Source: Liolophura sinensis
Lineage: Eukaryota; Mollusca; Polyplacophora; Chitonida; Chitonidae
Direction of reading: 5' to 3'
Length of the DNA stretch: 64,000 bases
Assembly: GCF_032854445.1 (NCBI RefSeq)
Contig: NC_088302.1
Span: 55,220,237-55,284,236 of the forward strand
Below, in pieces: positions 12,718 to 50,700 of the stretch; the stretch's first letter is position 1, and each line of letters opens with the position of its first letter. Position numbers and translations under genes: made by a program. The notes under the pieces are model-generated. The model was not told the DNA's origin and searched no databases. It worked only from the letters and a program-made list of their open reading frames with translations.

Positions 12718-15700
12718 ATGAGTGAACTACAGAAGTCACAAGATTACCAGAGTTTTAGGAGCACCATTTCCCAGAAGAAGGTTGGTTATTTGGCCAAGAC
12801 AAGGATGTATTATGATTTTAGTTCAGGTGATGAAGGTTAATAGAGTGTCAGGTAAACTATAAGTGATTCGACACCAAGCTATTTTGATGTAAATGGGGTA
12901 ATAACAAGATAATGACAATCAGTTTTTTCAAACATCCCTAGTGAAGACATATTCACAGCCTAAATCTTAATTTTTAATCTTTGTTGAGTGATGGAATTTG
13001 TCTGATTTGTCTGTCTTTGTTGATAAATTGATTCCCCTGTTAAATCAACCATATTTGCAACTGTGGCTTAACTGTTACCAACTCCTGCTCTGTGTGATTG
13101 TCTTAACTAAATTTTACAAATGTCTTTAAACATTTACGGTCATTGATTCTTCTTGCATCCTTCCATCCATGTGTTAGCATTCCCCTATTCCCTCTAATTT
13201 TTTGGACAGATATTAGTAGTGCTGATAACGAAGAAATACATTTCTCCCCAGTTTTTTTTTTTGTTTGTTTTTTTTTTCTCTTTGAAAGTAAAGATATTGA
13301 TATGTTGTTCATTAGATGGACTAGCCATGTGAAAACAAGAAACGAAGACAAGAAGAAGATCATTACTACTTCAGTTACATGTGTATTGGCTAAAAAGAGC
13401 AGATCAGGTCTCCCAAAAATTAGAGGAATTAGTCTACTAAAGATTGATGGAGTGACTCAACCCAGACACAGTTATGTCCTAGCTGGCATCCTGACATTCA
13501 GCAATTTGATATGGAGCATGATTGGTTCAATAATAAAGTCAACTGAATTGGTCCGTTTACCTGCAGTCTGCCATCAAGAGAGCCCACAATGTGGTTTCTG
13601 AGAATCCGTTTGTCAGGGAGAATGCAGCTAGAAAAATCACTGCCAGAACTTGGTCAAAAGCTCTTTTGGTTCTACCAAGGTTTCTAGCAGTGTTTGTCTT
13701 TGTTTGCTTTTCAAAGAGAAATTAATTCCTAATGAATCATTTGAAAGTGTGAGAGATTTTGCAAGGATCGAGATTTCATTTTTTAAATGGTCACTCTGCA
13801 CGATTAGGTGGTTTGTGAAGAACAGTTTTCAACCATGACTGAACTGAACCTCAGTAACTAGATAGCAGCTTATGGCTCATACGTGTAACTGTGCTCATGG
13901 AATTATCAGAGTTTTTTGTCAGGAATGACATAACGATGGTCATGGATGACATGTAGTAGGCATAATCCATCAATGTGAAACCTTGTATTCAGGTTGGGGA
14001 TAACCAAATTGTAGTCAGTTTACATACTGATTGGTTATTTGCAGATTGTAGTTGACGATGATGGGAAAAAGGTATGGACTCTGTACGATGCTGGACCCAG
14101 ACATATCCGCTGTCCACTGATCTGCTTCCCTCCAGCCAGCGGAACAGCTGACGTGTTCTATCGTCAGATAATGGCTCTTTCCACTGTCGGGTTTAGGGTT
14201 ATTTCTGTAAGTGTGTTCTGAAGATTAGGGCGAGGGGATAATTCCATTAACATGACAGTTACAGAATGATGTCTCATGTGCCTGTCAGATATGAGTGTAA
14301 TCAGGCCTCTCTAAATTCTTTACATTTTTGACTTTACATATGAACATACACATTTAGACTGTAACAGTTAAATAGTTGATATGGCTTAGTGAATACCATG
14401 AATATTTTTCACCCAAGTTAAGTGACCTTTGAATATTTATAACGTTCAAACATGACTGTGCAACATTTTTATTATATGTATTTTCTTAATACGATGAAAT
14501 AATGTATTGGACACCATGGTCAGAGATCAGTTTTCATGCAATAACACAGTGTGAAGTATCACTTGTATCTAGAGAGAAAACACAGATACATGGCATTTTA
14601 TATCTATGGAAATAATAATGTATTTTAAGCTCAAACTTTTTTCATTTGGAAGGTGGATTCATTTAATGTGAGATAATGGCTTCCAAAGTGTGTCTCTCAG
14701 ATTCTGAGATAATGGCTTCCAGTGTGTGTCTCTCAGATTCTGAGATAATGGCTTCCAGTGTGTGTCTCTCAGATTCTGAGATAATGGCTTCCAATGTGTG
14801 TCTCTCAGATTCTGAGATAATGGCTTCCAATGTGTGTCTCTCAGATTCTGAGATAATGGCTTCCAGTGTGTGTCTCTCAGATTCTGTCATAATGAGCTCT
14901 GTTCATGTAAATGATTTAACAGTTCATTATCACCTCATTGATATTGGAAGACAAAGTTTTGACCTTGAACGATACCATACGGAAGACTTGTGGCCTTGAC
15001 ATTAGGGAAGAAGCCATGGAGATATTTGTATTAGTTTATTATTAAAGACGGATTTATATCCATGAGATTTTGTCTATTATGGAAATTATCATCATAAACT
15101 GCTATGTACTATATGATTTGATGTGGTGTCCTGTCTGGTGTTTTCTGCTTGATGAAGCAGCACTGTCAGACACCAATAGAAGGAAGCTGTTATCAATGAT
15201 CTTATCAATAATTGATCAACCGTGCTAACATCATATTAAGGGTGACAAGCATTTGTTTTGGATAAAGTAATTATTCTATGTGTGTAAATTCAGTATAATG
15301 TGTGCAGTATAAAATTTCAGGCTTTTCTTTTGTGTTTCAGGTTGAATATCCAGTGTATTGGACGCTAAAGGAATTCTGTGAGGGCTTCAGGCGCTTCCTT
15401 GATCATTTGCAACTCGATCGGGTAACAAGGCCTTTTATTAACACATATTACTTCAACTGAAGCAAACTTTGTTATTACAGATGTTAAACATATTGTAGTG
15501 AAATTTAGTGCAAGATGTATTGGCACATCTATGAATAGATTGACTTTTTGCTCCCAAGCCTGATCCATTGTTTTGTTTTAGGTTCACATATTTGGTGCTT
15601 CCTTAGGGGGTTTTTTAGCCCAGAAGTTTGCAGAGTACACTAGCCGTTCACCAAGAATAGCCTCCCTGATCCTCTGTAATGCATTTTCTGACACAACAAT

Positions 15701-17320
15701 ATTTCAGCAGACAACTTCTGCAGCCACGTAAGTTCTGAATATTTCTGCGACATATTTTGTTACAAGCTGTACAAGAGAGGAATGGTCAAGGAGCCCTGCT
15801 ATGCAGTACACTGCATCAGCACAGGAAGATGTTAACAAAAGATTTACAAGACTCCTGTGACATATCAATAGATCAGCAGAAGTCCCCCATTTTCTATTTG
15901 TGTGTGAACACTTTTTGGGGATGCTGCAATACTTCTATGTCTTCACCTTTCTGATGGATTTAATTGCTCAAAAACACTGTGATTAATAGTATTTAACTCA
16001 TGTGAGGAACGCCAGCTCAAATTAAACCACCAGCCTTTGGCAAGTAGCTGACAAACATTCACTCATGTGACACATACATTTTCACTTGTAGAACTGGCTC
16101 AGATTGTATGCCATATTGGTGAAAGGCAAGTGATCTGGAAAGCACTTTATGTAACCACCTCAATGAGCCTACAAGCACTTGTGGCCACTTATTGACTCCA
16201 ATGCCTATTATTGTCTATCCTTTACCTGTGGCTGGTAAGACTTTCTCGGGTATGAGAACATCTTCTTTAGCCAAGGTATTGAGTAAAGCGTCATATCTAT
16301 ATCATTTGGCTACCAAAGATGGCACGAGGACTAAAATAGGATTTTGGGAAAAGTGCATTTTGATAGAATTTTTATGCATGCTAATGAGTCACAAAACACA
16401 TTATTTCTCCTTGCATTGGTCTGTAGGTTTTGGATGATGCCAGCTCTGATTCTGAAGAAAATGGTAATGGGAAATTTTGAGCGTGGTTTTGTAGATGCAG
16501 ATATAGCAGATTCCGTGGATTTCTTAGTAGACAAGGTAAGACGCATTTTGTGATGTTTGAATCGGATGAAAATGCTATGAAGGTAGTATAAAATATGCCT
16601 AGCATGTGTACCATAACAGGGGAAAAAGTATTAGCAAGCAAATGGTTCACCAACATCCTCTTCAACCAAAACAGAAATACGTGCGGTTTTTGAGATTTGT
16701 TCATGGTCCTCTATAATTGTCAGTGGAGTTCTGGACATTTCTTTGTCCAATTCTTGACACTTCTTAATGCAGGGGTGAAATTTGGCCATTTTTGTTTTAT
16801 TTTATATTTTGATTCTCCATTTTATTATCTTTCCTCTCACTGATAGACGTTTTCCCATGCAAGCAATGTCATCCTAATGTAGATATTAGCAAAAACAACA
16901 GCCTTAATCACCCCGCAGGAATCAGTTTATTAACATGTTCAAGCAGGGTGTGCTCAGAACTGTCAAGATAAGACATCCTACACTTAACAGGCTAGTCCAA
17001 CTTGAGAATTGCCACTAGAACGTCACGTACCTGTATGAAGAATAAATGGAGTGATCCATAGAATCTACATAATGTGTGATTGTTCTTGTGTCTGGTATTT
17101 GCATTGTAAGTGTGTTTAGTATTTAGTCTACATTTTGCCACTATTACCATACCTGTATATATCTGTAACATACACCTGTTACCCATGGCTTTAAAGCCAT
17201 TATAGAATATTGTTCAGATAATATCTGGCTGGATTACGTTATCGTGCTGCCTTATTCGCTGTATCTATATCTTACGGTGATTTAACATCTAGTCTGTATT
17301 TTGGGGCTGTGTCTCCATAC

Positions 17321-17396
<76 letters not shown>

Positions 17397-19198
17397 GTAA
17401 TGTTCACTATGAAATTTAGTTCTCGTAATGGTGGTAAAATAAAGTGCTGAAATATTGAGTCAAAACGAGTCTTTCAGTTTTCGTTGTTACACTACACATG
17501 GATAACGTTGAATCTGCAATACTTACTGTCATCACTGCCATTGAATCATGCCATACTATAAGGGCTGGATGAACTTTGTCCTGCAGTTAGACGGCTTAAC
17601 CCAGCAGGAGCTCGCATCACGGCTTACACTTAACTGTATGAATGCCTATGTGGAGCCCCAGAAACTCAAGGAGTTGGACATTACATTAATGGATGTGAGT
17701 TGTGTGGTTTTATGTTCTCCTTTTACAAAAACAAAGCATAACAGCTGAGATAATGAATCACCTACAGGTGGCAACGTAGATAAACATGATGCTTTCTGAG
17801 AGCTTTTATGTTTTCCAATGAAAGAATTTAATTGTTAGTTTTAATCTTGATTAGTTTGGGCAGTGGAATAAATCAGCATTTATTATCAGTTGTATCAAAT
17901 ATTGCCTTGTGAGATTCTGTTCCAGACAAGTGAAAAAAATAAAACAATCGCAAAGAAACCCTTGTACAATAGATGAATGTCATGGACCACTATAATGGCA
18001 GGTATAACATTAAAATATTCAGATGACCTACCCCTTAAAATAGTAAACTCTGTTCTGTGTTGTTTGGATTGCATTGAGTTTTCCACTCGAACTGCCTGTA
18101 CTAATGTGTGTGATAGCAGCCTGTTCTTTACCTCCCCAGGTGTTTGACGAGTGTGCATTGTCCCACCAGGTGAAGGAGGAGATGTATAAGTGTTACCCTG
18201 ACGCACGGAGAGCTCACCTAAAGTCAGGCGGGAACTTCCCTTACCTGAGTCGTAGTGATGAGGTCAACATTTACATACAGGTGAGAAAAACTGTCCTACT
18301 TCCATTCAGGTGAGAACTTCCCTACCTGAGTAGTAGTGATCCCGAAAATGTCCCAAAAACCTCAGAAGTAAAGCAAATAAATAGGTCTCTGTTATGTGTG
18401 TGTTTTTGATTGACATGTCATTTATGTTTGCTACAAATGGCAACACAAGTGCATTAAAACGTTAACTTGTAAACAGTGCTTTTTAACATCACACCATGAA
18501 GAATATGACTTAGTCTGGAGCTCTTGTGTGATAGAAGAGAAAACTACAACTCATATATTTTGAGATGCATGTACATGTATATTAGGACATACAAGTTACC
18601 AAGTCCCCTCTCTCCTCCTGGCTCTTTCAACCAATAGTTGTCTGCAGCCATTTGCTCACCTATGAGGTTACAGGTTTGACTACAGCTTTTGCTTATTTGG
18701 CTGCAGCTTTGTGTCAGGAAATTTGTTATGCCCCAACTGTAGGGCAATGGTTTACTCCAAACAGTCAGGGTTCCTCTACCCATACAAATGTAAGCTGTCA
18801 TGCAAGTACAAATTTCTTGAGTATGGCTTAGGAACTGCCAGTGAAGTGTTTAAAGATGTGGAATTTTATGTGTATTATTTCTGGATAATAAAACCCTCCA
18901 ACTCTGGCTATTTTCATTCTCTTTCCAAAAGAAGGCAATTTGTTATTTAAGCACATCAATTTGTGAAAACTTTTAAATGATTTCAATGTAATTTTCAGAG
19001 TCGTGTTATACATACACAAGTACCTGTTGTGGTCATTTAACGCAATTTGTCTTGTTGAGTTTCTCATCTACGATTTATGACAATGTATGTGTGTTTGTAT
19101 AGATCCATCTCCAGAAGTATGAAGGTGGGAAGTATAGTGCCAAGGATGCACCTAAAGTGGATGAGTGTAGAGAAGCACATTCCTCACAGGAGTTATAA
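12718..19198 (+). CDS. SPG21: Maspardin, alpha/beta-hydrolase-fold protein
   Basis: Eight coding exons: 12718-12780, 14045-14206, 15341-15421, 15582-15727, 16427-16535, 17587-17694, 18140-18280 and 19103-19198. All borders are GT-AG and phases join without a break to give 301 residues (human maspardin 308). The N-terminus [21 protein letters not shown] leads into [18 protein letters not shown] and PASGTADVF. The nucleophile elbow FGASLGG puts Ser at residue 109. Strongly conserved later blocks are [29 protein letters not shown] and [16 protein letters not shown]. Maspardin is an endosome/trans-Golgi-associated protein that binds CD4 and is mutated in Mast syndrome; an enzymatic substrate is not established. 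The first coding exon begins 2 bases after an acceptor ('ttccaaaatag'), so at least one 5' UTR exon lies upstream. Introns carry a 36-bp array and a (TA)n tract. Confidence 0.95.
12781..14044. other. SPG21 intron 1
   Basis: A reading frame on the plus strand at 13143-13601 and a short one from 13650 overlap T-rich sequence. They have no recognisable domain. A stretch near 13570-13700 following 'tttacctgcag' could be a relic of something coding, but I cannot name it. Confidence 0.4.
14669..14890. repeat. 36-bp minisatellite, six copies, SPG21 intron 2
   Basis: The unit 'agataatggcttccagtgtg' followed by 'tgtctctcagattctg' repeats every 36 bases. Its first part resembles a stretch of exon 2 of the same gene at about 14166-14190 ('agataatggctctttccact'), about 480 bases upstream. 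It is open in frame on both strands only because of the unit length. Confidence 0.93.
17325..17394. repeat. (TA)n dinucleotide tract
   Basis: About 35 uninterrupted TA units in SPG21 intron 5, followed by the only other notable content of that intron, short A/T-rich sequence. Confidence 0.97.
18303..18346. repeat. Partial duplicate of SPG21 exon 7 end
   Basis: Starting 22 bases into intron 7, 'caggtgagaacttcccta' and 'cctgagtagtagtgat' copy parts of exon 7 ('gggaacttcccttacctgag' and 'cgtagtgatgagg') together with the CAG|GTGAGAA donor context. It is a second, apparently unused, donor-like copy. Confidence 0.7.
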
Positions 19199-19790: not shown

Positions 19791-19796
19791 AATAAA
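19791..19796 (+). terminator. AATAAA polyadenylation signal of SPG21
   Basis: AATAAA about 600 bases after the SPG21 stop codon, before the 63-bp array begins. The intervening 19199-19790 is taken as 3' UTR. Confidence 0.5.
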
Positions 19797-20059
19797 ATAT
19801 TTTTGAAAGTTTTTGTATGGGCAGTGTCATTAAAGTTCTTTCTGTATAAATGTTTGTTTTCAGTGACAGTCACGCACTTGTAATGCGATATATCCTTAAC
19901 TGATGTAAATCATAAACCACTTTGTATGAAGCTTTGATTTCATCACTTTGCTAATATTAAACTGGAAACATGTCCAAGTATCGCCGTAAATAATTTTTTG
20001 ATTTCCATCTGAGTCACTCATTCATGCAGACGTAATCAAGGAGGAAGTGATGGTTTTGT

Positions 20060-28874: not shown

Positions 28875-29703
28875 TGCATTGTAAGGAAGGACAGATGAAT
28901 CACAGCAGGCCACAGTTTTGTTGATGGGGAAGGACAAATGAATCACAGGAGATCACAGTTCTGTTGCTGGTGATGTGGAAGGACAAATGAATCACAAGAG
29001 ATCACAGTTCTGTTGCTGGTGATGTGGAAGGACAAATGAATCACAGGAGATCACAGTTCTGTTGCTGGTGATGTGGAAGGACAAATGAATCACAAGAGAT
29101 CACTGTTCTGTTGCTGTTGATGTGGAAGGACAAATGAATCACAAGAGATCACAGTTCTGTTGCTGTTGATGTGGAAGGACAAATGAATCACAAGAGATCA
29201 CAGTTCTGTTGCTGTTGATGTGGAAGGACAAATGAATCACAAGAGATCACTGTTCTGTTGCTGTTGATGTGGAAGGACAAATGAATCACAAGAGATCACA
29301 GTTCTGTTGCTGTTGATGTGGAAGGACAAATGAATCACAAGAGATCACAGTTCTGTTGCTGTTGATGTGGAAGGACAAATGAATCACAACATATCACTGT
29401 TCTGTTGCTGTTGATATGGAAGGACAAATGAATCACAACATATCACTGTTCTGTTGCTGTTGATGTGGAAGGACAAATGAATCACAAGAGATCACAGTTC
29501 TGTTGCTGTTGATGTGGAAGGACAAATGAATCACAACATATCACTGTTCTGTTGCTGTTGATATGGAAGGACAAATGAATCACAACATATCACTGTTCTG
29601 TTGATGTAGAAGAACTATTGAATTACAACTCGTCACAGTTCTTTTGCAGTGGAAAGACCAATGAGTCACAACAGGTCACAGTTTTGTTGCTGTGGAAGGA
29701 GAG
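28875..29703. repeat. 49-bp minisatellite reaching the first recognised ABHD8 exon
   Basis: The unit 'ggacaaatgaatcacaagag' plus 'atcacagttctgttgctgtt' and 'gatgtggaa' repeats every 49 bases about 16 times. The last degenerate units run into the first recognised ABHD8 coding exon, so the 20 codons after the ATG at 29649 are repeat-derived. The exon itself reads 'aatgattcacaagataac', close to the unit's 'aatgaatcacaagagatc'. Confidence 0.93.
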
Positions 29704-32700
29704 TTTTTAATCTCCAGAGAATCGCACCACTGAATGATTCACAAGATAACTACTTGTTTTTGGAAGTACGACCGAAGAGATGGCTGAACATTTGTCATTT
29801 GAACGCCAGATCCAGAGATGACCAGTTCAGCCGTGAACTCCTTTTGGCGGCTCAGGGTACCAACAATGGGTTCCCAGTCATTAGATGCGCTAAGGTTGTT
29901 CCAAGTCCTGTTCATACCTCTCAAAGAGTCCAAGAGGCACCAGCCCTATCTGACACAATGGGATCTAACAGAGTCCAAATGCACCTGAACACCCCTGAGT
30001 CTGTCAAAGCACGTGTGCATTTTGACTCCAGTATAGGTGGGGATGATAAAGCTGCTTCACGATTCATTGACGCTACTGTTGACAGGGGGCATTCTGCTGC
30101 AAGTGTTGCCTTGTCATTGGCATCCCACCAGAGTTCTGCCCCTTCACCTCATGCGCAGCTCCCATCATCGAAAACTGAAAAGCATTCATGTGAATCTCAG
30201 AAAGAAAGTGAAAGTGTAAAGCTTGAAATATCCACAAGTAATTCTCCATCTAAACCTAAGAGTTCTCAGCAAGGAGAGAAGGAAGCTGTGTTATTTTTCT
30301 TCCACGGGGTTGGCGGGTCCTCTGACACGTGGAGGGCCCAGATAGATTATTTCTCTGCACAAGGCTATGAGGTGGTTGCCCCAGATCTGCTTGGGCATGG
30401 GTTTAGCGGGGCACCTGACAAAAGGAAGGCTTACCACTTTGAGGAAATCACAAAGGACTTAGAAGCCGTATTTGACAAGTTCTGCAAGAAAAGAAATGTT
30501 ATTATTGCTCACTCATATGGGTATGTCTATGACAATCTATTTTGTTTATGGGCTAGAACAATTATAAGTAGTTTTTCCAAAGTGTCTGTATAGGATAACT
30601 TGGATGTCAATCTTGTCAAGTTTTGAGTCTTTTCAAGGTCAGTTACTAAGCATTAGCACAGACCTCAATGTATTTGAACTGGCATAGTTGTAGGAATACT
30701 ATAAGGCACCATATTTGCATTTGAAATTTGGTCCTGGATATTGTCAGTGTTGCTTAATTCTTGCATTTGTGTTTCCATTTGTGGAAACTCTGCTACATAA
30801 CCTGTATACAAGTATCTAGAGAGCCGTTTGATTCATTTGTATGATACATTACAGGTGTTCATTTGCTGTTGTGCTGGCACGGAAGCGATCTCGGCGTGTC
30901 ACCAAGATAGTGCTGATCAGTGGTGGAGGCCCCACCCCTTTGGCTCCCCAGCCCGGTGTGTTCAGTCTGCCATTCTGCCTGCTTGTGTGCGTTAGACCAT
31001 GCCTTGATTGTGGATTTCAGCAGTAAGTATCTAGATCCAGACTGTAACATCATTATCGCTGTATTTAGCTGAGTATAAATCAATCCCATGAAAGGGAGTA
31101 ATCAGTCCCACGCAGCTGAGTTATCATTTTCTTGTACATGTGGCTGAGTAATCTGTCCTGTGTGGGTGAGTAATCAGTCCCATGTGGGTGAGTAATCAAT
31201 CGCATGTGGGTGAGTAATCCATCCCATGTGGGTGAGTAATCTGTCCCATGTGGGTGAGTAATCAGTCCCATGTGGGTGAGTAATCAGTGCCATGTGGGTG
31301 AGTTATCAGTCCCATGTGGGCGAGTAATCAGTCCCATGTAGTTGAGTAATCAGTCCCATGTAGCTGAGTAATCAGTCTCATGTGGCTGAGTAATCTGTCT
31401 CATGTGGCTGAGTAATCTAACCCATGTAGCTGAGCAATCAGTCTCATGTAGCTGAGTAATCTGTCCCATGTAGCTGAGTAATCAGTCCCATGTGGGCGAG
31501 TAATCAGCCCCATGTAGCTGAGTAATCAGTCCCACATAGCTGAGTAATCTGTCCCATGTAGCTGAGTAATCTGTCCCATGTAGCTGAGTAATCAGTCCCA
31601 TGTAGCTGAGCAACCAGTCCCATGTGGCTGAGTAATCTGTCTCATGTAGCTGAGTAATCTGTCCCATGTAGCTGAGTAATCTGTCACATGTGGCTGAGCA
31701 ATCAGCCCCATGTAGCGGAATAATCAGTCCCATGTAGCTGAACAATCAGTCCCATGTAGCTGAGTAACCAGTCCCATGTAGGGGAGTAATTAGTCTCATG
31801 TAGCTCAGTAATCAGTCCCATGTAGCTGAGTAATCAGTCCCACATAGCTGAGTAATCTGTCCCATGTGGCTGAGTAATCAGTCCCATATAGCTGAGTAAT
31901 TAGTCTCATGTAGCTGAGTAATCTGTCCCATGTAGCTGAGTAATCAGTCCCATGTAGCTGAGCAACCAGTCCCATGTGGCTGAGTAATCAGTCCCATGTG
32001 GCTGAGTAATCTGTCCCATGTGGCTGAGTAATCTGTCCTATGTAGCTGAGTAATCAGTCCCATGTAGTTGAGTAATCTGTCCCATATAGCTGAGTAATTA
32101 GTCTCATGTAGCTGAGTAATCAGTCCCATGTAGCTGAGTAATCAGTCCCATGTGGGTGAGTAATCAGTGCCATGTGGGTGAGTTATCAGTCCCATGTGGG
32201 CGAGTAATCAGTCCCATGTAGCTGAGTAATCAGTCTCATGTGGCTGAGTAATCTGTCCCATGTAGCTGAGTAATCAGTCCCATGTTGCTGAGTAATCTAA
32301 CCCATGTAGCTGAGCAATCAGTCTCATGTAGCTGAGTAATCTGTCCCATGTAGCTGAGTAATCAGTCCCATGTAGCTGAGTAATCAGTCCCATGTAGTTG
32401 AGTAATCTGTCCCATGTAGCTGAGTAATCTAACCCATGTAGCTGAGCAATCAGTCTCATGTGGCTGAGTAATCTGTCCCATGTAGCTGAGTAATCAATCC
32501 CATGTAGCTGAGTAATCTGTCCCATGTAGCTGAGTAATCTGTCCCATGTAGCTGAGTAATCAGTCCCATGTGGGCGAGTAATCAGCCCCATGTAGCTGAG
32601 TAATCAGTCCCACATAGCTGAGTAATCTGTCCCATGTAGCTGAGTAATCTGTCCCATGTAGCTGAGTAATCAGTCCCATGTAGCTGAGCAACCAGTCCCA

Positions 32701-35700
32701 TGTGGCTGAGTAATCTGTCCCATGTAGCTGAGTAATCAGTCCCATGTAGTTGAGTAATCTAACCCATGTAGCTGAGTAATCTGTCTCATGTAGCTGAGTA
32801 GTCTAACCCATGTAGCTGAGCAATCAGTCCCATGTGGCTGAGTAATCTGTCACATGTGGCTGAGCAATCAGCCCCATGCAGCGGAATAATCAGTCCCATG
32901 TAGCTGAACAATCAGTCCCATGTAGCTGAGTAACCAGTCCCATGTAGGGGAGTAATTAGTCTCATGTAGCTCAGTAATCAGTCCCATGTAGCTGAGTAAT
33001 CAGTCCCACATAGCTGAGTAATCTGTCCCATGTGGCTGAGTAATCAGTCCCATGTGGCTGAGTAATCTGTCCCATTTGGCTGAGTAATCTGTCCCATATA
33101 GCTGAGTAATTAGTCTCATGTAGCTGAGTAATCTGTCCCATGTAGCTGAGTAATCAGTCCCATGTAGCTGAGCAACCAGTCCCATGTGGCTGAGTAATCA
33201 GTCCCATGTGGCTGAGTAATCTGTCCCATGTGGCTGAGTAATCTGTCCTATGTAGCTGAGTAATCAGTCCCATGTAGTTGAGTAATCTGTCCTATGTAGT
33301 TGAGTAATCAGTCCCATATAGCTGAGTAATTAGTCTCATGTAGCTGAGTAATCAGTCCCATGTAGCTGAGTAATCAGTCCCATGTGGCTGAGTAATTAGT
33401 CTCATGTAGTTGAGTAATCAGTCCCATGTAGCTGAGTAATCAGTCCCATGTGGCTGAGTAATCTAACCCATGTAGCTGAGTAATCAGTCCCATGTGGCTG
33501 AGTAATCTGTCCCATGTAGGGGAGTAATCTGTCTCATGTAGCTGAGTAGTCTAACCCATGTAGGGGAGTAATCTGTCCTATGTAGTTGAGTAATCAGTCC
33601 CATGTAGTTGAGTAATCTAACCCATGTGGGTGAGATATCAGTCCCCTGTCAGATATCGAAGTAGTTAGTCCCATCTAGCTGGTCCATCATTACACAGTCA
33701 TGTAATGAGTCACATCAAGCTGAGTAATCTCATATGAAGTAATTTGATGGTTATGCGTGACTAATGTGGAGCACTGTGGATTAATTATGATGGGTATTCA
33801 CTCATTGTCAACATATAAACTAGTGCAGGTGATCTTTGACAAGTGCTGTCAGATTTGACAGGAGCACTGTGGATAGACTGATGGGGATTGACTCATTGTC
33901 AACATATAAACTAGTGCAGGTGATCTTTGACAAGTGCTGTTAGATGTGACAGGAGCACTGTGGATAGACTGTGATGGGAATTCACTCATTGTCAACATAT
34001 AAACTAGTGCAGGTGATGTTTGACAAGTGCTTTCAGATTTGACAGGAGCACTGTGGATAGACTGTGATGGGGATTGACTCATTGTCAACATATAAACTAG
34101 TGCAGGTGATCTTTGACAAGTGCTGTCAGATTTGACAGGAGCACTGTGGATAGACTGATGGGGATTGACTCATTGTCAACATATAAACTAGTGCAGGTGA
34201 TCTTTGACAAGTGCTGTTAGATGTGACAGGAGCACTGTGGATAGACTGTGATGGGAATTCACTCATTGTCAACATATAAACTAGTGCAGGTGATGTTTGA
34301 CAAGTGCTTTCAGATTTGACAGGAGCACTGTGGATAGACTGTGATGGGGATTGACTCATTGTCAACATATAAACTAGTGCAGGTGATCTTTGACAAGTGC
34401 TGTCAGATTTGACAGGAGCACTGTGGATAGACTGTGATGGGGATTGACTCATTGTCAACATATAAACTAGTGCAGGTGATCTTTGACAAGTGCTTTCAGA
34501 TTTGACAGGAGCACTGTGGATAGGCTGTGATGGGGATTGACTCATTGTCAACATATAAACTAGTGCAGGTGATCTTTGACAAGTGCTGTCAGATTTGACA
34601 GGAGCACTGTGGATAGACTGTGATGGGGATTGACTCATTGTCAACATATAAACTAGTGCAGGCGATCTTTGACAAGTGCTTTCAGATTTGACAGGAGCAC
34701 TGTGGATAGACTGTGATGGGGATTGACTCATTGTCAACATATAAACTAGTGCAGGTGATCTTTGACAAGTGCTGTCAGATTTGACAGGAGCACTGTGGAT
34801 AGACTGTGATGGGGATTGACTCATTGTCAACATATAAACTAGTGCAGGCGATCTTTGACAAGTGCTTTCAGATTTGACAGGAGCACTGTGGATAGGCTGT
34901 GATGGGGATTGACTCATTGTCAACATATAAACTAGTGCAGGTGATCTTTGACAAGTGCTGTCAGATTTGACAGGAGCACTGTGGATAGACTGTGATGGGG
35001 ATTCACTCATTGTCAACATATAAACTAGTGCAGGTGATCTTTGACAAGTGCTGTCAGATTTGACAGGAGCACTGTGGATAGACTGTGATGGGGATTCACT
35101 CATTGTCAACATATAAACTAGTGCAGGTGATCTTTGACAAGTGCTTTCAGATTTGACAGGAGCACTGTGGATAGACTGTGATGGGGATTGACTCATTGTC
35201 AACATATAAACTAGTGCAGGCGATCTTTGACAAGTGCTGTCAGATTTGACAGGAGCACTGTGGATAGACTGTGATGGGGATTGACTCATTGTCAACATAT
35301 AAACTAGTGCAGGTGATCTTTGACAAGTGCTGTCAGATTTGACCGGAGCACCTCAGGATAACTGTGATGCAGATTCACTCCTTATGAACATTTTAACCGG
35401 TGCAGGTGATCTTTGACAAGTGCTGTCAGATAGTGCCAATGATCTGTTACAGAAGTGCTGTCAGATATCATAGAAGTATGGTCATGTGCTGTAGCGAGGA
35501 GTCATTAATTATATCCATAATCAGTGCTGGTGGTCTGTTACAGAAGTGCTGTCAGATAGTGCCAATGATCTGTTACATAAGTGCTGTCAGATATCACAGG
35601 AGTATGGTCATGTGCTGTAGCGATGAGTCATTAACTGTGTCCATAACCAGTGCCAATGATCTGTTACAGAAGTGCTGTTAGATAGTGCCAATGATCTGTT

Positions 35701-38582
35701 ACAGAAGTGCTATCAGATATCATAGGAGTATGGTCATGTGCTGTAGCGATGAGTCATTAATTGTGTCCATAACCAGTGCCGGTGATCTGTTACAGAAGTG
35801 CTGTCAGATAGTGCCAATGATCTGTTACAGAAGTGCTATCAGATATCCTAGGAGTATGGTCATGTGCTGTAGCGATGAGTCATTAACTGTATCCATAACC
35901 AGTGCCGATGATCTGTTACAAAAGTGCTGTTAGATATCATAGGAGTATGGTCATGTGCTGTAGCGATGAGTTATTAACTGTATCCATAACCAGTGCCGAT
36001 GGTCTGTTACAGAAGTGCTGTCAGATAGTGCCAATGATCTGTTACAGAAGTGCTGTTAGATATCATAGGAGTATGGTCATGTGCTGTAGCAATGAGTCAT
36101 TAACTGTATCCATAACCAGTGCCGATGGTCTGTTACAGAAGTGCTGTCAGATAGTGCCAATGACCTGTTACAGAAGTGCTGTCAGATATCATAGGAGTAT
36201 GGTCATATGCTGTAGCGAGGAGTCATCAACTGTATCCATAACCAGTGCCGATGATCTTTTACAGAAGTGCCTTTCATAAGAGTAGACGAGTGCACAGCCC
36301 AAAGGATCAGGCCTTTGACATCCCAACGTATGTCCTGCGTCACATGATGAATGGCCAGAGGTGGTTGGAGGGCGATCGGGTGTTCCACAACTGGCTGAGT
36401 GTGGCTACTCTACTGATCTACGGGAAACATGACAAGCTGGTCACCCTTGAAGAGGAGCGGACAATGGAGAAGGTAGTTGGCAGAGTTTGTGTGTTACTGT
36501 GAGAAGGTAGCTAGTGTAGTTCGACTGTTACTGTTCACCAAGCTCTCACAGTAAATTGCCAGACACCTGACAGACAGACACTAGGTAGCTTAAAGAGCAA
36601 GAGCTGGACTTGAATACACAACCTTAATGGGGTTTTTAGCTGGCTGTTATGAAGTAAAGCGAGGTATTGTGAGTGGGGAGGAAAAGTGGCCTTGGTGTTG
36701 GTATCTGAGTAAGCTTTTTTGTTTGGGTCAGTTGAGTAAAGTTTTTTGTTTGGGTCAGTTGAGCAAGGTTTCTTGTTTGGGTCAGTTGAGTAAGGTTTTA
36801 TGTTTGGGTCAGTTGAGTAAGCTTTTTCGCTTGGGTCAGTTGAGTAAGGTTTTTTGTTTGGGTCAGTTGAGTAAGGTTTTATGTTTGGGTCAGTTGAGTA
36901 AGGTTTTATGTTTGGGTCAGTTGAGTAAGGTTTTATGTGTGGGTCAGTTGAGTAAGGTTTTTTGTTTGGGTCAGTTGAGTAAGGTTTTTTGTTTGGGTCA
37001 GTTGAGTAAGGTTTTATGTTTGGGTCAGTTGAGTAAGGTTTTATGTTTGGGTCAGTTGAGTAAGGTTTTTTGTTTGGGTCAGTTGAGTAAGGTTTTTTGT
37101 TTGGGTCAGTTGAGTAAGGTTTTATGTTTGGGTCAGTTGAGTAAGGTTTTATGTTTGGGTCAGTTGAGTAAGGTTTTATGTTTGGGTCAGTTGAGTAAGG
37201 GTTTTTGTTTGGGTCAGTTGAGTAAGGTTTTTTGTTTGGGTCAGTTGAGTAAGGTTTTATGTTTGGGTCAGTTGAGTAAGGTTTTATGTTTGGGTCAGTT
37301 GAGTAAGGTTTTTTGTTTGGGTCAGTTGAGTAAGGTTTTATGTTTGGGTCAGTTGAGTAAGGTTTTTTGTTTGGGTCAGTTGAGTAAGGTTTTTTGTTTG
37401 GGTCAGTTGAGCAAGGTTTTATGTTTGGGCCTGCTAGTCTCACAGTTTTCACATCACCTTTATGAAACTTGGTTGGATGAAGATGATTTGGACATTTACT
37501 CATTTTGGTTATAAATTAGGGATATCTGAATTTTGATTCACATTATCAGGTTTTGGGCTCAGCCATTTTATCCATTCCAGTTCTATAGTCGGCCAGGGTA
37601 AGGCTTTTTGTTTGGGTGAGCTGTTGGGTGGCACAGTTTTTACATTATCTTGCTGTAACTTGTGGGAACAATGGGCATACCGTGAAAACCTCATCAAATA
37701 AATGATTTTAAATAATTAGTTATATTTGTCTTATTAAAATTATCAGGTTTTGGCCATTTTATGTTAGCCAGTACTCTTCAGTTTTGTTAGCTAGGATAAG
37801 GTTTTGTGTTTGGGTCAGATATTCCAACATCTTTATGAAACTGGGTGGGAATGATGAACAGGATTTGGGGATTTACTCATTTTGATTAGGGATGTTTGCA
37901 TTTTTATTCAGATTATCAGGTTTTTGCCTTGGCCATTTTATCTTAGCCAGTACTGTTCAGTTTTGTTGGCCAGGGTAAGGTTTTATGTTTGGGTCAGATA
38001 TCCCATCAGTTTTCACATCATCTTCTTGAAACTGGGTGGGAATGATGAACAGGATTTGGGGATTTACTCATTTTGAATAATTGGGGATATGTGCTTTTTT
38101 AGCTGGTCGTTACAATGTAAGCTTCTTTGTTTGGGTCAGCTGTTGTCAAAAGTTTTCACAATATGTTCATGAAACTTCTTGGGCTTGATAAACATGCTTT
38201 GAAGATGTTGACATAATACTTGGTTTTTCTGTTATTTTTCTGTAAAAACTAGCATGTTTTGGACTTGATGTGCTTACATTCACTTCACAGGAGTATATGT
38301 AGCCTCAGAGTAAGGTTTCATGTTTGGGTCAGCTGTTACCAGTTTTCAACATACCTTCATGAAACTTAGGCTGTCATTTAAACTGAAAAAATTGCCGACA
38401 AGCTGTTAAGTTTCTCATAACCCTTGTTTTTATGTGTATCCTGTTGACAGACAATCTACGGCTCAAGGCTGGAGGTGGTGGATGGGGCTAGTCACATGGT
38501 GATGATGGAACAGCCACAGGCCGTCAACTCTCTTATCCACAACTTTCTATTGTCAGACTTCATGATAGCTGGGCAGAGCTGA
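29649..38582 (+). CDS. ABHD8: ABHD8, alpha/beta-hydrolase domain protein
   Basis: Coding exons 29649-30520, 30855-31022, 36265-36472 and 38451-38582 join in phase to 459 residues (human 439). The N-terminal block NYLFLEVRPKRW, a Ser-rich linker (about 90-210), and the hydrolase domain from FFFHGVGG (oxyanion His219-Gly220) are followed by the nucleophile elbow IAHSYG (Ser289, with Ala in place of the first Gly of GxSxG), GKHDKLV (Asp403) and GASHMVM (His431), so the triad is intact. Family-specific blocks ISGGGPTPL and YVLRHMMNGQRW support ABHD8. Human ABHD8 is poorly characterised and no substrate can be stated. The start is uncertain: the first 20 codons come from a minisatellite, and 'tttttaatctccag' ending near 29717 is a possible acceptor that would place the real start in an unseen upstream exon. 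Introns 2 and 3 are mostly minisatellite. The stop codon lies inside the first unit of a 20-bp array. Confidence 0.94.
31080..33655. repeat. 22-bp minisatellite, about 115 copies, ABHD8 intron 2
   Basis: The unit 'agctgagtaatcagtcccat' plus 'gt' repeats for 2.6 kb, beginning about 60 bases after the exon 2 donor. Variants (ctgtcc, ctaacc, gggtgag, ggggag) occur in the same order in two distant blocks, which shows higher-order duplication (see findings). Confidence 0.97.
33750..35400. repeat. 93-bp minisatellite, about 17 copies, ABHD8 intron 2
   Basis: The unit runs 'ttgacaggagcactgtggat', 'gactcattgtcaacatataa', 'actagtgcaggtgatctttg', 'acaagtgctgtcagatt'. Spacing is 93 bases. 'gctgtcag' and 'gctttcag' variants tend to alternate, so part of the array is a 186-bp dimer repeat. 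The 390-codon minus-strand frame across it is a period artefact. Confidence 0.96.
35400..36264. repeat. 126-bp array abutting the ABHD8 exon 3 acceptor
   Basis: The anchor 'agtatggtcatgtgctgtag' recurs every 126 bases (one step is 91). Each unit has one or two copies of 'gatctgttacagaagtgctg'. The array ends at the real acceptor, where the sequence is 'gatcttttacag|aagtgcc'. The 126-bp units share this core with the preceding 93-bp units ('gatctttgacaagtgctgtc'). Confidence 0.95.
36705..37430. repeat. 27-bp minisatellite, about 27 copies, ABHD8 intron 3
   Basis: The unit 'gttttatgtttgggtcagtt' plus 'gagtaag' repeats every 27 bases, with 'ttttttg' and 'ttttatg' variants. Both strands are open for about 300 codons because 27 is divisible by three. 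Copies of 'tgtttgggtcag' continue at wide spacing to 38340. Confidence 0.96.
37440..38345. repeat. Imperfect long repeats of about 200 bp
   Basis: Three or four diverged copies share 'gaaactgggtgggaatgatg', 'ggggatttactcattttga', 'attatcaggtttt' and 'tgtttgggtcag'; the best pair is about 197 bases apart near 37830 and 38027. The 27-bp array looks like an amplification of one segment of this longer unit. Confidence 0.75.
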
Positions 38583-40370
38583 GGATAGCTGGACACACCT
38601 GAGGACAGCTGGACAGACCTGAGGGCAGCTGAACAGACCTGATGATACCTGGTGCCTGAGCACAGCTGGTCATAGCTGAGGACAGCTGGACAGAGCTGAG
38701 GATAGCTAGACAGAGCTAAGCATAGCTTGGCAGAGCTGAGAATAGCTGAACAGAGCTGAGGCTAGTTGATCCGAGTCAAGGATAGCTAGACAGAGGTGAG
38801 GATAGTTGGGCAGAATTGAGGATAGCTGAACATAGCTGAGAATAGTTTGGCAGAACTGAGGCTAGCTGGGCACAGCCGAGGATAGCTGGTCAGAGTTGAG
38901 GCAAGCTAGACACAGCTGAGGCTAGCTGGACACAGCTGAGGATAGCTGGACATAGCTTAGGATAGCTGGACATAGCTGCGAACAGTTTGGCAGAACTGAG
39001 GCTAGCTGGGCAGAGCTGAGGATAGCTGGACAAAGCCGAGGATAGCTGGACAGCTGAGGCTAGATGTGCAGAGCTGAGGCTAGCTGCGCAGAGCTGAGGC
39101 TAGTTGGACACAGCTGAGGCTAGCTGGACACAGCTGAGGCTAGCTGGTCAATGCTGAGGCTAGCTGGGCAGAGCTGAGGCTACCTGGACACAGCTGAGGA
39201 TAACTGGTCAGAGCTGAGGCCAGCTGGACAGAGCTGAGGCTAGCTGCGCAGAGCTGAGGCTAGCTGGACACAGCTGAGGCTAGCTGGACACAGCTGAGGC
39301 TAGCTGGACACAGCTGAGGCTAGCTGGACAGAGCTGAGGCTAGCTAGGCAGAGCTGAGGCTATCTGGGCAGAGCTGAGGCTAGCTGTGCAGAGCTGAGGA
39401 TAGCTGGACACAGGTGAGACTAACTGGACACAGCTGAGGATAGCTGGTCAGAGCTGAGGCCAGCTGGACAGAGCTGAGGCTAGCTGCGCAGAGCTGAGGC
39501 TAGCTGGACACAGCTGAAACTAGCTGGACAGAGCTGAGGCTAGCTAGGCAGAGCTGAGGCTAGCTGGGCAGAGCTGAGGCTAGCTGGGCAGAGCTGAGGC
39601 TAGCTGGACAGAGGTGAGACTAGCTGGGCAGAGCTGAGGCCAGCTGGACAGAGTTGAGGCTAGCTAGGCAGAGCTGAGGCTAGCTGGACAGCTGAGGCTA
39701 GCTGGTCAGAGCTGAGGCTAGCTGGGCAGAGCTGAGGATAGCTGGACACAGCTGAGGATAGCTGGGCAGAGCTGAGGATAGCTGGACACAGCTGAGACTA
39801 GCTGGTCAGAGCTGAGGCTAGTTGGGCAGAGCTAAGGCTAGTTCGACAGAGCTGAGGATAGCTGGACAGAGGTGAGGCTAACTGGACACAGCTGAAGATA
39901 GCTGGGAAGAGCTGAGGATAGCTGGTCAGAGCTGAGGCTAGCTGGACACAGCTGAGGCTATTTGGGCAGAGCTGAGGATAGCTGAACAGAGCTGAGGATA
40001 GCTAGACAGAGCTGAGGCTAGCTGGACACAGCTGAGGCTAGCTGGGCAGAGCTGAGGATAGCTGGACACAGCTGAGGCTAGCTGGGCAGAGCTGAGGATA
40101 GCTGGACACAGCTGAGGATAGCTGGGCAGAGCTGAGGCTAGCTGGACATAGCTGAGAATAGTTTGGCAGAACTGAGGCTAGCTGGTCAGAGCTGAGGATA
40201 GCTGGACAGAGCAGAGGATAGCTGGACAGAGCTGAAACTAGCTGGGCAGAGCTGATGCTAGCTGGACAGAGCTGATGCTAGCTGGGCAGAGCTGAGGCTA
40301 GCTGGACAGAGCTGAGGCTAGCTGGACAGAGCTGAGGCTAGCTGGGCAGTGCTGAGGGTACCGGAACAGA
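38560..40370. repeat. 20-bp minisatellite starting at the ABHD8 stop codon
   Basis: The unit 'gctggacagagctgaggcta' repeats about 90 times over 1.8 kb. The final ABHD8 codons (38564-38582, 'atagctgggcagagctga') are themselves one unit, so the array is the 3' UTR. An AATAAA follows at 40481. Confidence 0.97.
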
Positions 40371-40480
40371 GATGAGGATTATTTCTCATCTGCAGAATGG
40401 GAAACTGAACCCAACTGATCATCTGTGATATTATGCTCATTGCTGTTTTGAGAGTCTAATTCTCTAGGTGGATGGTATAA

Positions 40481-44400: not shown

Positions 44401-44722
44401 TCACTAGGTTTAACACCAACATTAATATGCCTAGTTTAACAAGATCGTTGGGTTCCAGACATGCGCCCAGGGCACACGTAATGACAAGCCCCACGAGACT
44501 CCACATCAGCCAAGACTTCTTTGTGCCTACCCGATCCACGAGTGGCGCCCACATTGCTTTACACATCCAGGGGACTAGTAACAGTTTGAAGAGACCCACA
44601 TTGGTCAGTGACATGCCCCGCGTCCGTAGGTAGATCGGTAGAAACCGTGCCTGCAATCCGTACGGTAGGCCCTGTATGAAATACAGGAAAGCTAAAAGAA
44701 GGATGTTCCTGTATGTCTCCAT
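41488..44722 (-). CDS. MFSD3: Major facilitator superfamily transporter MFSD3
   Basis: Four coding exons, 43987-44722, 43592-43739, 42324-42454 and 41488-41795, join in phase to 440 residues (human MFSD3 412). It is a 12-helix-type MFS carrier related to the acetyl-CoA transporter group; the substrate is not established. Family blocks: FLYFIQGLPYGLQARFLP at residues 12-29, VPWMCKAMWAPLVDRVG (MFS loop 2-3 region), STQDIAVDGLAIKIL, QVVGYKLGAIMGGG, and near the C-terminus VTTATFTMMMQCSQRAP and SHYTTLATLEVMGKL. A hydrophilic insert at about 190-225 separates the two six-helix halves. For exon 2 I used the GTAATA donor after 43592 rather than GTAGCA a few bases earlier, because only the former keeps the phase. 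The next gene on the same strand is ANKLE1. Confidence 0.95.
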
Positions 44723-46809
44723 AAGGAAAAATTTCCCTCCTGATTTGAAATTTGACGATCCGTTCAGCTATTTGTATACAAGTGCACGAAGATGCGTCGT
44801 TGGCCGACGGCTGTACTGAACTGAACACAAACTAGCCACTCAAACATTTCATGACGCTGGAATCTTCACAAAATAAACAGGTTAGTTTACCCGTGAATAT
44901 AAGTGCATAAGTGCCCAGTTGACAAAGATTACGACTGAACCCATGAGAAAGCCTATCAAAGGTCTTTCCTCCGCTAAAACAAGAAATCGAAAGGGACAAC
45001 AGTAGTCTCCGCTGTGGACCACTATTTACCTTCGGCACTGAAGAGCTATCTTTTTCCCACAAGAGTTATCTCCCCAAAGTCTACCCAGCCCTTAAAAATA
45101 CAAATTTCTTTAGACTTAACGAACGTTGACCTGTTTATTATCCGTTTTTACAGGTTAAGTACATGTAATTTTAACTAAAATACTGTTCAATAAATGCATG
45201 ATTTGTTTCTGAGCACCACAGCATCATGTACTCTTGTATATGAATACAGTATGAACTTAAAAAGTTCCCATAATATAATGAATAAAGCACTTTTATACCA
45301 TCACTAATAGGCGATATGAAATCTTCTCAATGATTGAGTTAAATGCATATGTCAGAATGACTGAAGGATTTGTGATGTGATCAAAAGTTGAATATATGAA
45401 CATATGCACGACAAGGAAGCTTTCGTGGAGAACCAAACATGTGCAAACTGGAAAAGATATGAATAAAACCTAGGTTATGTAAAGCACTTGTGGCAGTAAG
45501 GTGACAGTAGCTACAGGTATCAGTCTAGTTTCAATTCTGGCTACCTTGTGAAACAAGAAACACCTGGTCCTGCTTTGAACAAAACTGAAGAACATGTATA
45601 GCAATATGTCAGGGTGGCTTTGATGAGAAACTGATCATGGACAAACTTCATGATGATTATGGATATCCTTAAAAACATACACAACAAATACACAGTAAGC
45701 AATTTACATAATGTAACAATGTAAGCGTACACTTGGTAAGATCAGTCAGTAGTTTTACTTCACCATAACTATTTCATATTTACCGGTACTATCGTACCCC
45801 ATACAGTATTTAACAAAAATAAACATAACAATTATAAAGTACCTAAATCAAAATGTAACAACCTGTATGAAAATAAAATGTACATTTCCAACGACTGATT
45901 CTTTCTATGGTCAAATTTCATAGGAATGTAAAAAGATATGTTTTACATCTTTTTGACAGTTAAACATAATTTAACAAAGTTAAGACTTGACAGGGTAAGG
46001 GCAGAGTTTTGGCACATGAGCAAAATCCCATAAAATTCAGACAAGAAAACATAAACCATACCTCTTCATGCGAGATTCACTACATACAAATCACAAATGT
46101 ACACATACACTTATAAACATGTACACATACACTTATAAACATGTACATATACACATATAACATGTACACATACACTTATAAACATGTACATATACACATA
46201 TAACATGTACATATACACTTATAAACACTCCATTCTCCAGCATTTAGACAGGATTAAAACCAGTTCTTAATGTTTTACTTGCATAATGAAGTCATGTTTT
46301 AACATATTTGCATACACTGTCCCAGTTTGCTGGGAGTGTTATCTAAATGTCTAATTTAATAGACAACTGGGCTCTGAAAATAAGGTTTATATATCAACAT
46401 CAGGTAAACATAGAAAGTTGCTGAAAAATTACAGTAATTCTCCTCTTGTACAGTATTTTACAATACAGCTTTGTAAAACCTGAAGTTTTCAAAGTCTTCT
46501 GTTTTATGAATATACATGAATCTGACGTTCACTGAACTATATCAGGATTCAGACGTAAACATATAAGGACACTTCGGCTCACTGCCTGCTGTTATAAGGA
46601 AAATTTCCATCAAGTAAGAGTCTTCAAAATCAACAGAGTTTGACTGTCATGACTGCTCAGTCACTCTTTTTCTATACTACTTCCAGAAATTTTGGGGAAT
46701 TCCAGAAAATTGTGTATTTAAATGGATAGCTGTGCAGTTTTTAAGTGCAGCCCCATGCCATACTGTTTGGTACCAGTCAGATATAGGGTTTTACACCACA
46801 AACATACAT
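44723..46809. other. Spacer between MFSD3 and ANKLE1
   Basis: No gene recognised. A few 22-bp units of 'acacatacacttataaacat' lie at 46088-46222. The rest is A/T-rich DNA, upstream of MFSD3 and downstream of ANKLE1. Confidence 0.55.
46088..46222. repeat. Short 22-bp repeat 'cacttataaacatgtacaca'
   Basis: Five or six imperfect copies of a 20-22 base unit alternating 'cacttataaacatgtac' and 'cacatataacatgtac'. Confidence 0.8.
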
Positions 46810-47380
46810 TAGTGAGTCTAATGTTACATGGTTTATCTGTTATCAGGGCCAGGTGACTCAGGTGTACTTACGAGGCCTTACTGGTGAGTCTAATGTTACA
46901 TGGTTTATCTGTTGTCATGGCCAGGTGACTCAGGTTTAATTACGAGGCCTTACTGGTGAGTCCAATGTTACCTGGTTATCTGTGGTTAGGGCCAGGTGAC
47001 TCAGGTGTAATGAAGCCTTACTGGTGAGTCCAATGTTACCCAGTTTATCTGTTGTCAGGGCCAGGTGACTCAGGGGTAATTATGAGGCCTTACTGGTGAG
47101 TCCAATGTTACCTGGTTTATCTGTTGTCAGGGCCAGGTGACTCTGGTGTACTTACAAGGCCTTACTGGTAAGTCCAATGTTACCTGGTTTATCTGTTGTC
47201 AGGGCCAGGTGACTCAGGTTTAATTACGAGGCCTTACTGGTGAGTCCAATGTTACCTGTTTATCTGTGGTCAGGGCCAGGTGACTCAGGTGTAATGAGGC
47301 CTTACTGGTGAGTCCAATGTTACCTGGTTTATCCATGGTCAGGGCCAGATGGCTCAGGTGTAATGAGGCCTTACCTGGTC
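46810..47380. repeat. 72-bp minisatellite, block downstream of ANKLE1
   Basis: About eight units with 'tggtgagtccaatgttacct', 'ggtttatctgttgtcagggc' and 'caggtgactcaggt' match the array in ANKLE1 intron 5, more than 2 kb away. On the ANKLE1 strand each unit reads as a copy of the LEM exon end followed by GTAA. This block lies beyond the last ANKLE1 exon. Confidence 0.92.
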
Positions 47381-47708
47381 TGTAGCCCTGCAAGCAATGT
47401 CTATACCCATGCCACCAGTCGTGCAGTCTGCTGGTAAGTGCTCAGTGTTGTGTAAACAAGTTTGTCCCACTACTCAGGGCATGGGTTTTTATGTGTTGCA
47501 GATTTGTGACAACATACAGCAAACTCGTGCCTCATCTCGGCACCTTCAGGTGCCTTCACAGGTTGCGGAAATACAGCACATCACATAATTGCCAACCAAA
47601 ATAACTGGCTGGCTGAAAATACATTTGAAACATACATGCTGTTTTGGTTATTCACTGACCATGAACAACGACCATCACTAACTACTACATATATAACATA
47701 TATATAGC

Positions 47709-50700
47709 CTACTGCCCAACACCGATGTCAGGTGGGCAGATTTGTCTCTCTCCCTCAGCCAGAAAAATACAAAGGGCTTTCTTCAACAAATGCACGCCAA
47801 CCTTCCGCCTCTGATTGGCTGGCCACGTCGATGACGGCCCATAATAGTCCCCTCTTTTCTTATTGGTCAAGTTGTTCAACCCTGAAACAGTTCCAATCCA
47901 GACTATGAGTGATTATTTGTAGAAATCTCTCACAGATGTGCATGTAAATGAACGAGACCAAACAATACACACCCAAATCTTACCTGGATATATTTGTCTC
48001 TTTGATTGGTGTTTAAAGCCATACACAAGAACATCGCACTCACACCATGGCAGCCAGCGATGCAGTGGGAGGAAACCGGGCAAAGCCCAAGGGAAACCAA
48101 CTACCGTCATCAGGTTGCGAGAAGACCTTCCCACATACAACCGGTGAGGAAACAAACGTAAGCTGGACTTGAACTCACATTTATGGCATTGGTAAAAGGC
48201 TCCTGTGTGACTGCGCTAACATGCTAACAATGGGGTCATGTTACCTTCAGCAAAATGTTATTTATTCATTTGTTAATTTATTATTAGATTCTCATTACCC
48301 TGCATGTAAGAAAAATGATGCTATTTAATATACTAATTATTATTTAGTAATTTTCAAACAAGATGTATGTGAATCTGAAGAAAAGTCTGTTTTAAATTTC
48401 CAATCCCGCATTGATTAGAATTATTCTGCTTGTAATATAATACACAAAGGTCATGAGAAAGAACCAATTACTAAACAACAGTCTATTATTTAAAAGTTGC
48501 AGAATTAGATATCTACCAAAAAAGTCCAACGTTTTGGACCACTTACCCATGGCATCCACCATACAAGCCTCTCTGGTATAAGCCTCTACTGGAATGACGT
48601 TTTGGAATATATGAAGGGAGATAACTCCCAGCCCCTCAGACCAGACATCAAGAATCTTCTGTACCTTCTCACTGGGCTTCTATGTATATACAAAGACACA
48701 AATATAAACATATCTTTAAGATGTGAAAGATATAAAACAATTCACATAACATTATATTCGCTTTATCCTTGTTTCATTCCATGTATACAGGACTTGATTT
48801 TATTCTTCAAACTTTATTTTTCTGATCCGCTGTCAGATACGACTAAGAAGAGCTATAACCAAGAACAATGCCTTTGCAAAGCAGGTTTCTCTCTGTTTTC
48901 CCAAAGCAAATTGCAAATTTAGATCTTTCCCCTTACCTTAATCTGTGGTGATTTCCTGTGTTTTATGGCTTCATACAAGTGACAGTAAGGCCGAGATCTT
49001 TTCCCTTTCCCAATATAAAAGATGGCAGATATGAAAATCTTGAAGGTTTCCAGATCCCCTGTAAGAACAAGGACGAGGAAAAAAGAAATCCTTTGAGTTT
49101 GTACATCTAATGCAACTTAATAGAACTCTTGGTTTGCAAGGAGAGTACAATATTTGCCCTGCAAAATACATCTCATCTTGACAGAAACGGAAATGAAAAA
49201 AACACCATCCAGAATACAAAACCATGAACTTCAGCTTGAAAAAAGCTAGATTATGCTCCTTACCTCTTAATGAAAAAACCAAAGTCAGAAAGACACCTAC
49301 CCAGGATCTGTGCCCTAGTGGGAAGATTCTGGGCAACCCTGGGGTCAAGCAGCAGATAGTTAAAGGAGGACTTCAGCACGCCCTCCCTCCACTTCCTGTC
49401 AGCTCGCGGCCTCTGGAAAGGTTCCACCATTCGGGTCTCTGTCTCTTCCAGTCCAGCATAGGAAAACATTCCACTCAGTGCATGCCTCAGTTCTGAGGAG
49501 TACCCTACAACAGGCAGCAACCATGAAATTAATTAGACAGGCACTATTACATTATGACATAAGAGAAGCCTCGGGCGTATTATAAAAAAATGGCTCAGGT
49601 TTTTAATTACAAGGCCTTACTGGTCAGTTCTCTCTTACCTGGTTTATCTGGTGTCAGGGCCAGACAGCTCAGGTTTTTTAATTACAAGGCCTTACTGGTC
49701 ACTCCACTCTTACCTGGCTTATCTCTTCTCAGGGCCAGATGGCTCAGGTTTAATTACAAGGCCTTACTGGTCAGTCCTCTCTTACCTGGTTTATCTGATG
49801 TCAGGGCCAGATGGCTCAGGTTTAATTACAAGGCCTTACTGGTCAGTCCACTCTTACCTGGTTTATCTGATGTCAGGGCCAGACAGCTCAGGTTTTTAAT
49901 TACAAGGCCTTACTGGTCAGTCCACTCTTACCTGGTTTATCTCTTGTCAGGGCCAGACAGCTCAGGTTTAATTACAAGGCCTTACTGGTCACTCCACTCT
50001 TACCTGGTTTATCACTTGTCAGGGTCAGACAGCTCAGGTTTTTAATTACAAGGCCTTAATGGTCAGTCCACTCTTACCTGGTTTATCTCTTGTCAGGGCC
50101 AGACAGCTCAGGTTTTTAATTACAAGGCCTTACTGGTCACTCAAGTCTTACCTGACTTATCTATTGTCAGGGCCAGGTGGATCAGGTGTAATTACGATGC
50201 GTTACTGGTGAGACCAATCTTACCTGGCTTATCTGTTGTCAGGGCCAGGTGACTCAGGTGTAATTACAAGGCATTACTGGTTAGACCAGTCATACCTGGC
50301 TTATCTGTTGTCAGGGCCAGGTGACTCAGGTGTAATTACGAGGAGATACTGGTGAGACCAATCTTACCTGGCTAATCTACTGTCAGGGCCAGGGGGATCA
50401 GGTGTAATTATGAGGTCTTACTGGTGAGTCCAGTCTTACCTGGTTTGTCAGTCGTCAGAGCCAGCCGGCTGAGGTCAGGGTTGTTCTGCAGGTCCATAAG
50501 CCTGATCAGGTATGTCTGCCGTGTGGAAGGGGTAACAGGCCCAGGTTCATCCCCCAGGCTCACCAACCGTTTCTTCAACTCCACATTACTCAGCCTCTTC
50601 AGGACAGCAGGGATGTCAGGGGTCGCGTCCCCAATCACCTTACAATCTGATAATGAGGACGTCGTCAAAACAAGGGTTGCTTCTGAATCCTCACTATGGT

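Follow-up and report, generated by a model that had tools for sequence, protein, structure and literature searches.

Minisatellites founded in situ carry exon borders at many loci of an animal genome, at a rate close to background

The closest described counterparts of the repeats considered here are individual cases. A 31-bp VNTR in CBS (Lievers 2001, cited in PMC2630376) reportedly spans the border of exon 13 and intron 13, and the unit of the IFI6 minisatellite is said to be 12 bp long. As relayed in later papers, the minisatellite of human IFI6 (6-16) supplies multiple donor sites (Turri, Cuin and Porter 1995, via PMC3618361, PMC2572611). Splicing bypasses the duplicated intron 7/exon 8 junction of CBS 844ins68 (PMC2630376), a precedent for the neutrality of such a duplication. 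Tandem duplication has also been proposed as a source of new introns (Rogers; Hellsten 2011; discussed in PMC4974935). For scale, the tandem repeats taken as reference in a study of human minisatellites make up 0.52% of the genome, a filtered set that is not directly comparable with the array fractions given below (PMC8096271). An earlier note on the DNA analysed here was aware of no description of minisatellite birth at exon borders as a class. At the level of a class this holds, in that a literature search, mostly of journals open without subscription, found no description of border-carrying arrays as a genome-wide class; single cases, IFI6 and CBS, are known.

The arrays described below resemble the IFI6 minisatellite in lying at an exon–intron edge with a donor in each unit, as is seen at ANKLE1 exon 5 and at the sampled loci L020, L069, L086, L097 and L127. 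Tandem arrays with units longer than about 10 bp overlap real borders at ANKLE1 50440, at ABHD8 36265 and at 11 sampled sites, and each unit appears to keep a usable splice site, judging from the GT or AG present in most copies. IFI6, however, is one gene with a 12-bp unit, whereas the units here measure 27–140 bp, carry donors as well as acceptors, and are found in many genes. With CBS 844ins68 they have in common that an entire splice junction is duplicated in tandem and, presumably here too, tolerated as splicing settles on one copy, but the CBS duplication has two copies only and is polymorphic in people, whereas arrays here reach 44 copies. The CBS VNTR likewise lies across an exon–intron border, but as a single case. 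The intron-gain models of Rogers and Hellsten also invoke tandem duplication of short stretches in which splice signals are copied; in those models an intron is created within an exon, whereas the arrays here extend, from the edge, introns that already exist.

The window, a 64-kb stretch of a 609-Mb animal genome (C8:55220237-55284236), contains four complete genes with 25 exons, rebuilt from open frames, GT/AG splice signals and protein likeness; its arrays are those listed by Tandem Repeats Finder (TRF). Two of the genes encode alpha/beta hydrolases by Pfam, SPG21 (12718-19198, plus strand, 8 exons) and ABHD8 (29650-38582, plus strand, 4 exons). The others are MFSD3 (44722-41488, minus strand, 4 exons), an acetyl-CoA transporter/MFS protein by Pfam, and ANKLE1 (54791-47709, minus strand, 9 exons), with ankyrin, LEM and LEM-3-like GIY-YIG matches in Pfam. 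The folds thus have Pfam support; the four names follow from likeness recognised by eye. Upstream of SPG21, Pfam further identifies a rhodopsin-like GPCR that is apparently single-exon (4014-5105, plus strand) and an exon with the sperm-tail PG-rich repeat (SHIPPO; 7804-8346, minus strand). A 39-bp array of 9.8 copies at the window edge (153-534) leaves several frames open on both strands.

Exon 5 of ANKLE1 (50440-52185, minus strand; gene model and Pfam) ends at a donor at 50440 that is overlapped by a 72-bp minisatellite of 12 copies (49590-50475, minus strand; TRF, model and alignment). The exon-proximal copy is the 3' end of the exon together with its donor. GT is kept in all 11 further copies, and 10 of these equal or exceed the score of the true donor. 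A second array of the same 72-bp family (46812-47379, minus strand; TRF, model and unit search) contains no exon edge: it lies about 330 bp downstream of the stop codon (47709), past the last exon, so that the ANKLE1 arrays hold one true donor and not two. About 2.2 kb and four ANKLE1 exons separate the two arrays. It seems that the 72-bp unit was born on the exon-5 donor and that the distant array was seeded from it, a step for which simple slippage provides no explanation.

Three landmarks of ABHD8 lie within arrays, all on the plus strand. Upstream of the gene is a 49-bp minisatellite of 14 copies (28919-29607; TRF and alignment), each unit of which holds an ATG-led stretch resembling the ABHD8 N-terminus (MNHKRSQFCC...); if transcribed, this array may offer many upstream start codons. 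Degenerate copies of the unit continue at 29609-29690 (alignment score 44; gene model) and include a putative acceptor at 29649/29650 and the start codon at 29661. In intron 2, a compound array of 93-bp and then 35/91/126-bp units (33768-36270; TRF, model and alignment) ends just past the acceptor of exon 3 (36265-36472; gene model), the junction at 36264/36265 being contained in the final copy. There are 12 other junction-like copies in this array, and AG is kept in 10 of them. Nearly all of intron 2 (31023-36264, 5.2 kb) consists of tandem arrays, and its collapsed length would be no more than a few hundred bases. The stop codon at 38580-38582 falls within the first copy of a 20-bp minisatellite of about 91 copies (38566-40377; TRF, model and alignment). 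Intron 3 holds a 27-bp minisatellite (36706-37429), and related single copies occur further downstream to about 38330.

SPG21 provides a counter-example. By gene model and alignment, the 36-bp array of intron 2 (14669-14894, plus strand; TRF, model and alignment) contains no exon edge. The likeness of exon 2 to this array is uninformative, with a score of 14, the same as that of exon 5. Elsewhere in the gene, 36 bp from the interior of exon 7 is repeated once in the next intron (18224-18340, plus strand; alignment), about 26 bp past the donor at 18280; this is a two-copy duplication of displaced exon interior rather than an edge array. SPG21 was therefore rejected as a third gene with a border array. 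Of the five exon edges in three genes that had been claimed for this region, what survives is four landmarks in two genes: the ABHD8 start codon, exon-3 acceptor and stop codon, and the ANKLE1 exon-5 donor. Gene models and alignment remove SPG21 and the second ANKLE1 donor.

The same note had argued that random overlap with exon borders must be rare because exons are rare. That argument does not survive the array density. Tandem arrays make up 35% of 14045-50440, so that 2–4 hits are expected by chance among about 50 borders (P = 0.11–0.50), and exon rarity was rejected as a null in favour of founding units counted on array-collapsed DNA. When arrays are collapsed and each counts as a single founding unit within the non-coding DNA, the founding rate in the window is 3.6% per site, and 1.8 hits are expected against the 3–4 seen at 50 borders (P = 0.27 and 0.11, respectively). 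A detector-independent measure, which asks whether the 20-base word at each junction recurs nearby, finds 4 of 51 borders duplicated against 3.6 expected (P = 0.50). By the array count and by the junction-word test, border hits in the window are not above the prediction from array density. The interiors of exons are avoided, only 59 of the 6434 exon bases of the window genes lying inside arrays.

Exons elsewhere in the genome were sampled by protein family, irrespective of repeats; the kinesin, myosin, TCP1 and UCH exons used represent the conserved domains of four families and may be unrepresentative. The sample comprises 155 exons with 310 borders in 63 genes, 65 of the exons being held out. 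Sample 1, which was inspected before the test was fixed, consists of 60 exon hits for kinesin and myosin, taken with 1.5-kb flanks, merged into 46 regions that span 178 kb and contain 90 exons. The held-out sample consists of 65 further TCP1, UCH, myosin and kinesin exons with 200-bp flanks, picked from hit tables prior to inspection of the sequence; it detects arrays only within 200 bp. A simple splice-site score, applied near the ends of profile-HMM matches, set the positions of the borders, some of which are likely to be a few bases off; copy numbers are those of the genome assembly.

Arrays make up 14.6% of the 178 kb around the kinesin and myosin exons, and none of them lies wholly within a sampled exon. 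Eleven of the 310 borders (about 1 in 28), in 10 of the 63 genes, lie within arrays that include the exon edge in their units. By junction reading, those of sample 1 are the donors of a kinesin exon (L020, 73-bp unit) and of two myosin exons (L069, 66 bp; L065, 140 bp), and the acceptors of two kinesin exons (L007, 64 bp; L005, 27 bp) and one myosin exon (L071, 32 bp). The held-out sample adds five of its 130 borders, all donors: three in TCP1 (L086, L094 and L097), one in myosin (L127) and one in kinesin (L139). L077 is an additional probable case found by the junction-word test only, and the acceptor of L095 is borderline. Border-carrying arrays are thus a genome-wide phenomenon, and their generality beyond one cluster is supported in an independent sample, with all 11 units matching only their own loci among the best candidates. 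In one TCP1 (CCT subunit) gene, at C8:53.405-53.413 Mb, arrays cross or touch the borders of three exons (L086, L094 and L095). Genes such as this one and ABHD8 suggest that births of arrays are concentrated in certain genes.

Most copies in the border arrays keep the canonical GT or AG and score near the authentic site. The extra copies retain it in 11 of 11 cases at ANKLE1, 14 of 14 at L069 and 19 of 21 at L071, where 19 further AG acceptors score as high as the true one. An array often contains about a dozen working-looking copies of its splice site, and as many as 44 copies occur.

How these arrays came to lie at exon edges can be explained in several ways. Were they dispersed satellites or transposon-borne repeats that landed there by accident, their units should not be confined to one place. 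A dispersed family does exist: the 27-bp unit of ABHD8 intron 3 forms arrays on at least C1, C6, C8, C10, C11 and C12, but its array in the window touches no border. When the 11 sampled units were compared with the whole genome, all 122 matches listed fell at the 11 source loci, and the window units, the 27-bp one apart, were likewise local among the best candidates, the border units matching only their own locus; because the search lists nothing beyond its top candidates, a few remote copies could exist. Each array was therefore founded in situ, and since every sampled unit contains the sequence of its own exon, these are independent births and not one mobile family. Within the reach of the search, accidental landing of dispersed repeats is refuted. 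The idea that the arrays mark newly created introns gains some appeal from the exon sequence and donor or acceptor within each unit, since duplicated splice-signal segments are a proposed route to intron birth (PMC4974935). That route needs a duplicated exonic piece at both ends of the intron, however, and junction reading found only one edge matching the unit in each case, the other being unrelated; we consider this origin highly improbable. It is also very unlikely that the extra splice sites, start codons and stop codons are retained for a selected function, the tuning of splicing or expression that the multiple donors of IFI6 perform. The canonical dinucleotides and near-authentic scores of most copies speak for such a function, but the copies of a young array are alike everywhere, and conservation of GT or AG needs no selection. 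In addition, the arrays are private to single genes, and use of the next donor would often shift the reading frame (offsets of 68, 26, 140, 109 and 124 nt).

Whether a feature of the exon edge itself, such as splice-linked pausing, R-loops or GT-rich donors, raises the founding rate, especially at donors, is a matter of the excess at borders. By array count, 11 hits are seen against 5.6 expected, a ratio of 1.98, with confidence intervals that include 1 whether computed by locus (0.83–4.02) or by gene (0.92–3.62). The nominal binomial P of 0.027 treats as independent the exons of one gene, and three events or near-events fall in a single TCP1 gene; the five border arrays of the held-out sample alone give P = 0.087. 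The junction-word test gives 3.9% at borders and 2.85% at other non-coding words, a ratio of 1.36 (CI 0.68–2.28) against a control that over-weights long or diverged arrays. A control of intronic words within 80 bp, which gives a ratio of 2.2, was set aside as biased: copies of an array are displaced beyond this distance, and within it they count for less. Founding rates are thus 1.8% (arrays) or 2.85% (words) at non-coding sites and 3.5–3.9% at borders. Donors account for 8 of the 11 crossed borders, at a rate of 5.8% compared with the 2.85% control, but the donor–acceptor difference by words, 9 against 3, has P = 0.14. Furthermore, the window shows no excess, and the ABHD8 start and stop codons are also hit, which a splice-linked process does not predict. 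The border-specific birth put forward in the earlier note finds no strong enrichment in the sample, where its genome-wide check yields 1.36- to 1.98-fold with intervals that include 1, and we regard it as unlikely. A border preference of some degree could nevertheless exist, since the point estimate stays above 1 (1.4–2.0-fold) with a nominal P of 0.027.

The border arrays probably result from a very high frequency of tandem duplication in non-coding DNA, on which selection acts as a filter. Minisatellites would be founded at a very high rate across non-coding DNA, short stretches of roughly 20–140 bp being duplicated in tandem where they lie and then expanding. The founding duplications would land more or less at random, perhaps through slippage or template switching, and those wholly inside coding exons would be lost through selection. 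A duplication that spans a border, in contrast, may be tolerated, since the border survives unbroken in one exon-proximal copy while the remainder becomes intron or flank. The array could then grow into the intron or flank with splicing and coding preserved, the exon-proximal site presumably remaining the one in use, and the outcome would be gene-private arrays with a genuine splice site, start codon or stop codon at one end. Since borders are hit at about chance frequency, no special process at exon edges is needed. Duplicated splice sites should sometimes do harm, however, and a truly neutral rate at borders would itself need explaining.

A cluster of repeats that overlap exon borders is to be expected by chance where one third of the DNA is minisatellite, and annotators of such genomes should be warned that exon ends may recur in introns. 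It is conceivable, if doubtful, that founding is raised about two-fold at borders, mainly at donors, so that thousands of splice sites end long decoy arrays and are chosen by position alone. The decoy splice sites are the most useful part of the finding. If arrays carry the splice sites at roughly 3–4% of borders, the genome would hold a large natural set of exons with copies of their own sites, up to dozens, and the choice that the spliceosome makes among near-identical neighbouring sites would become testable from RNA-seq alone.
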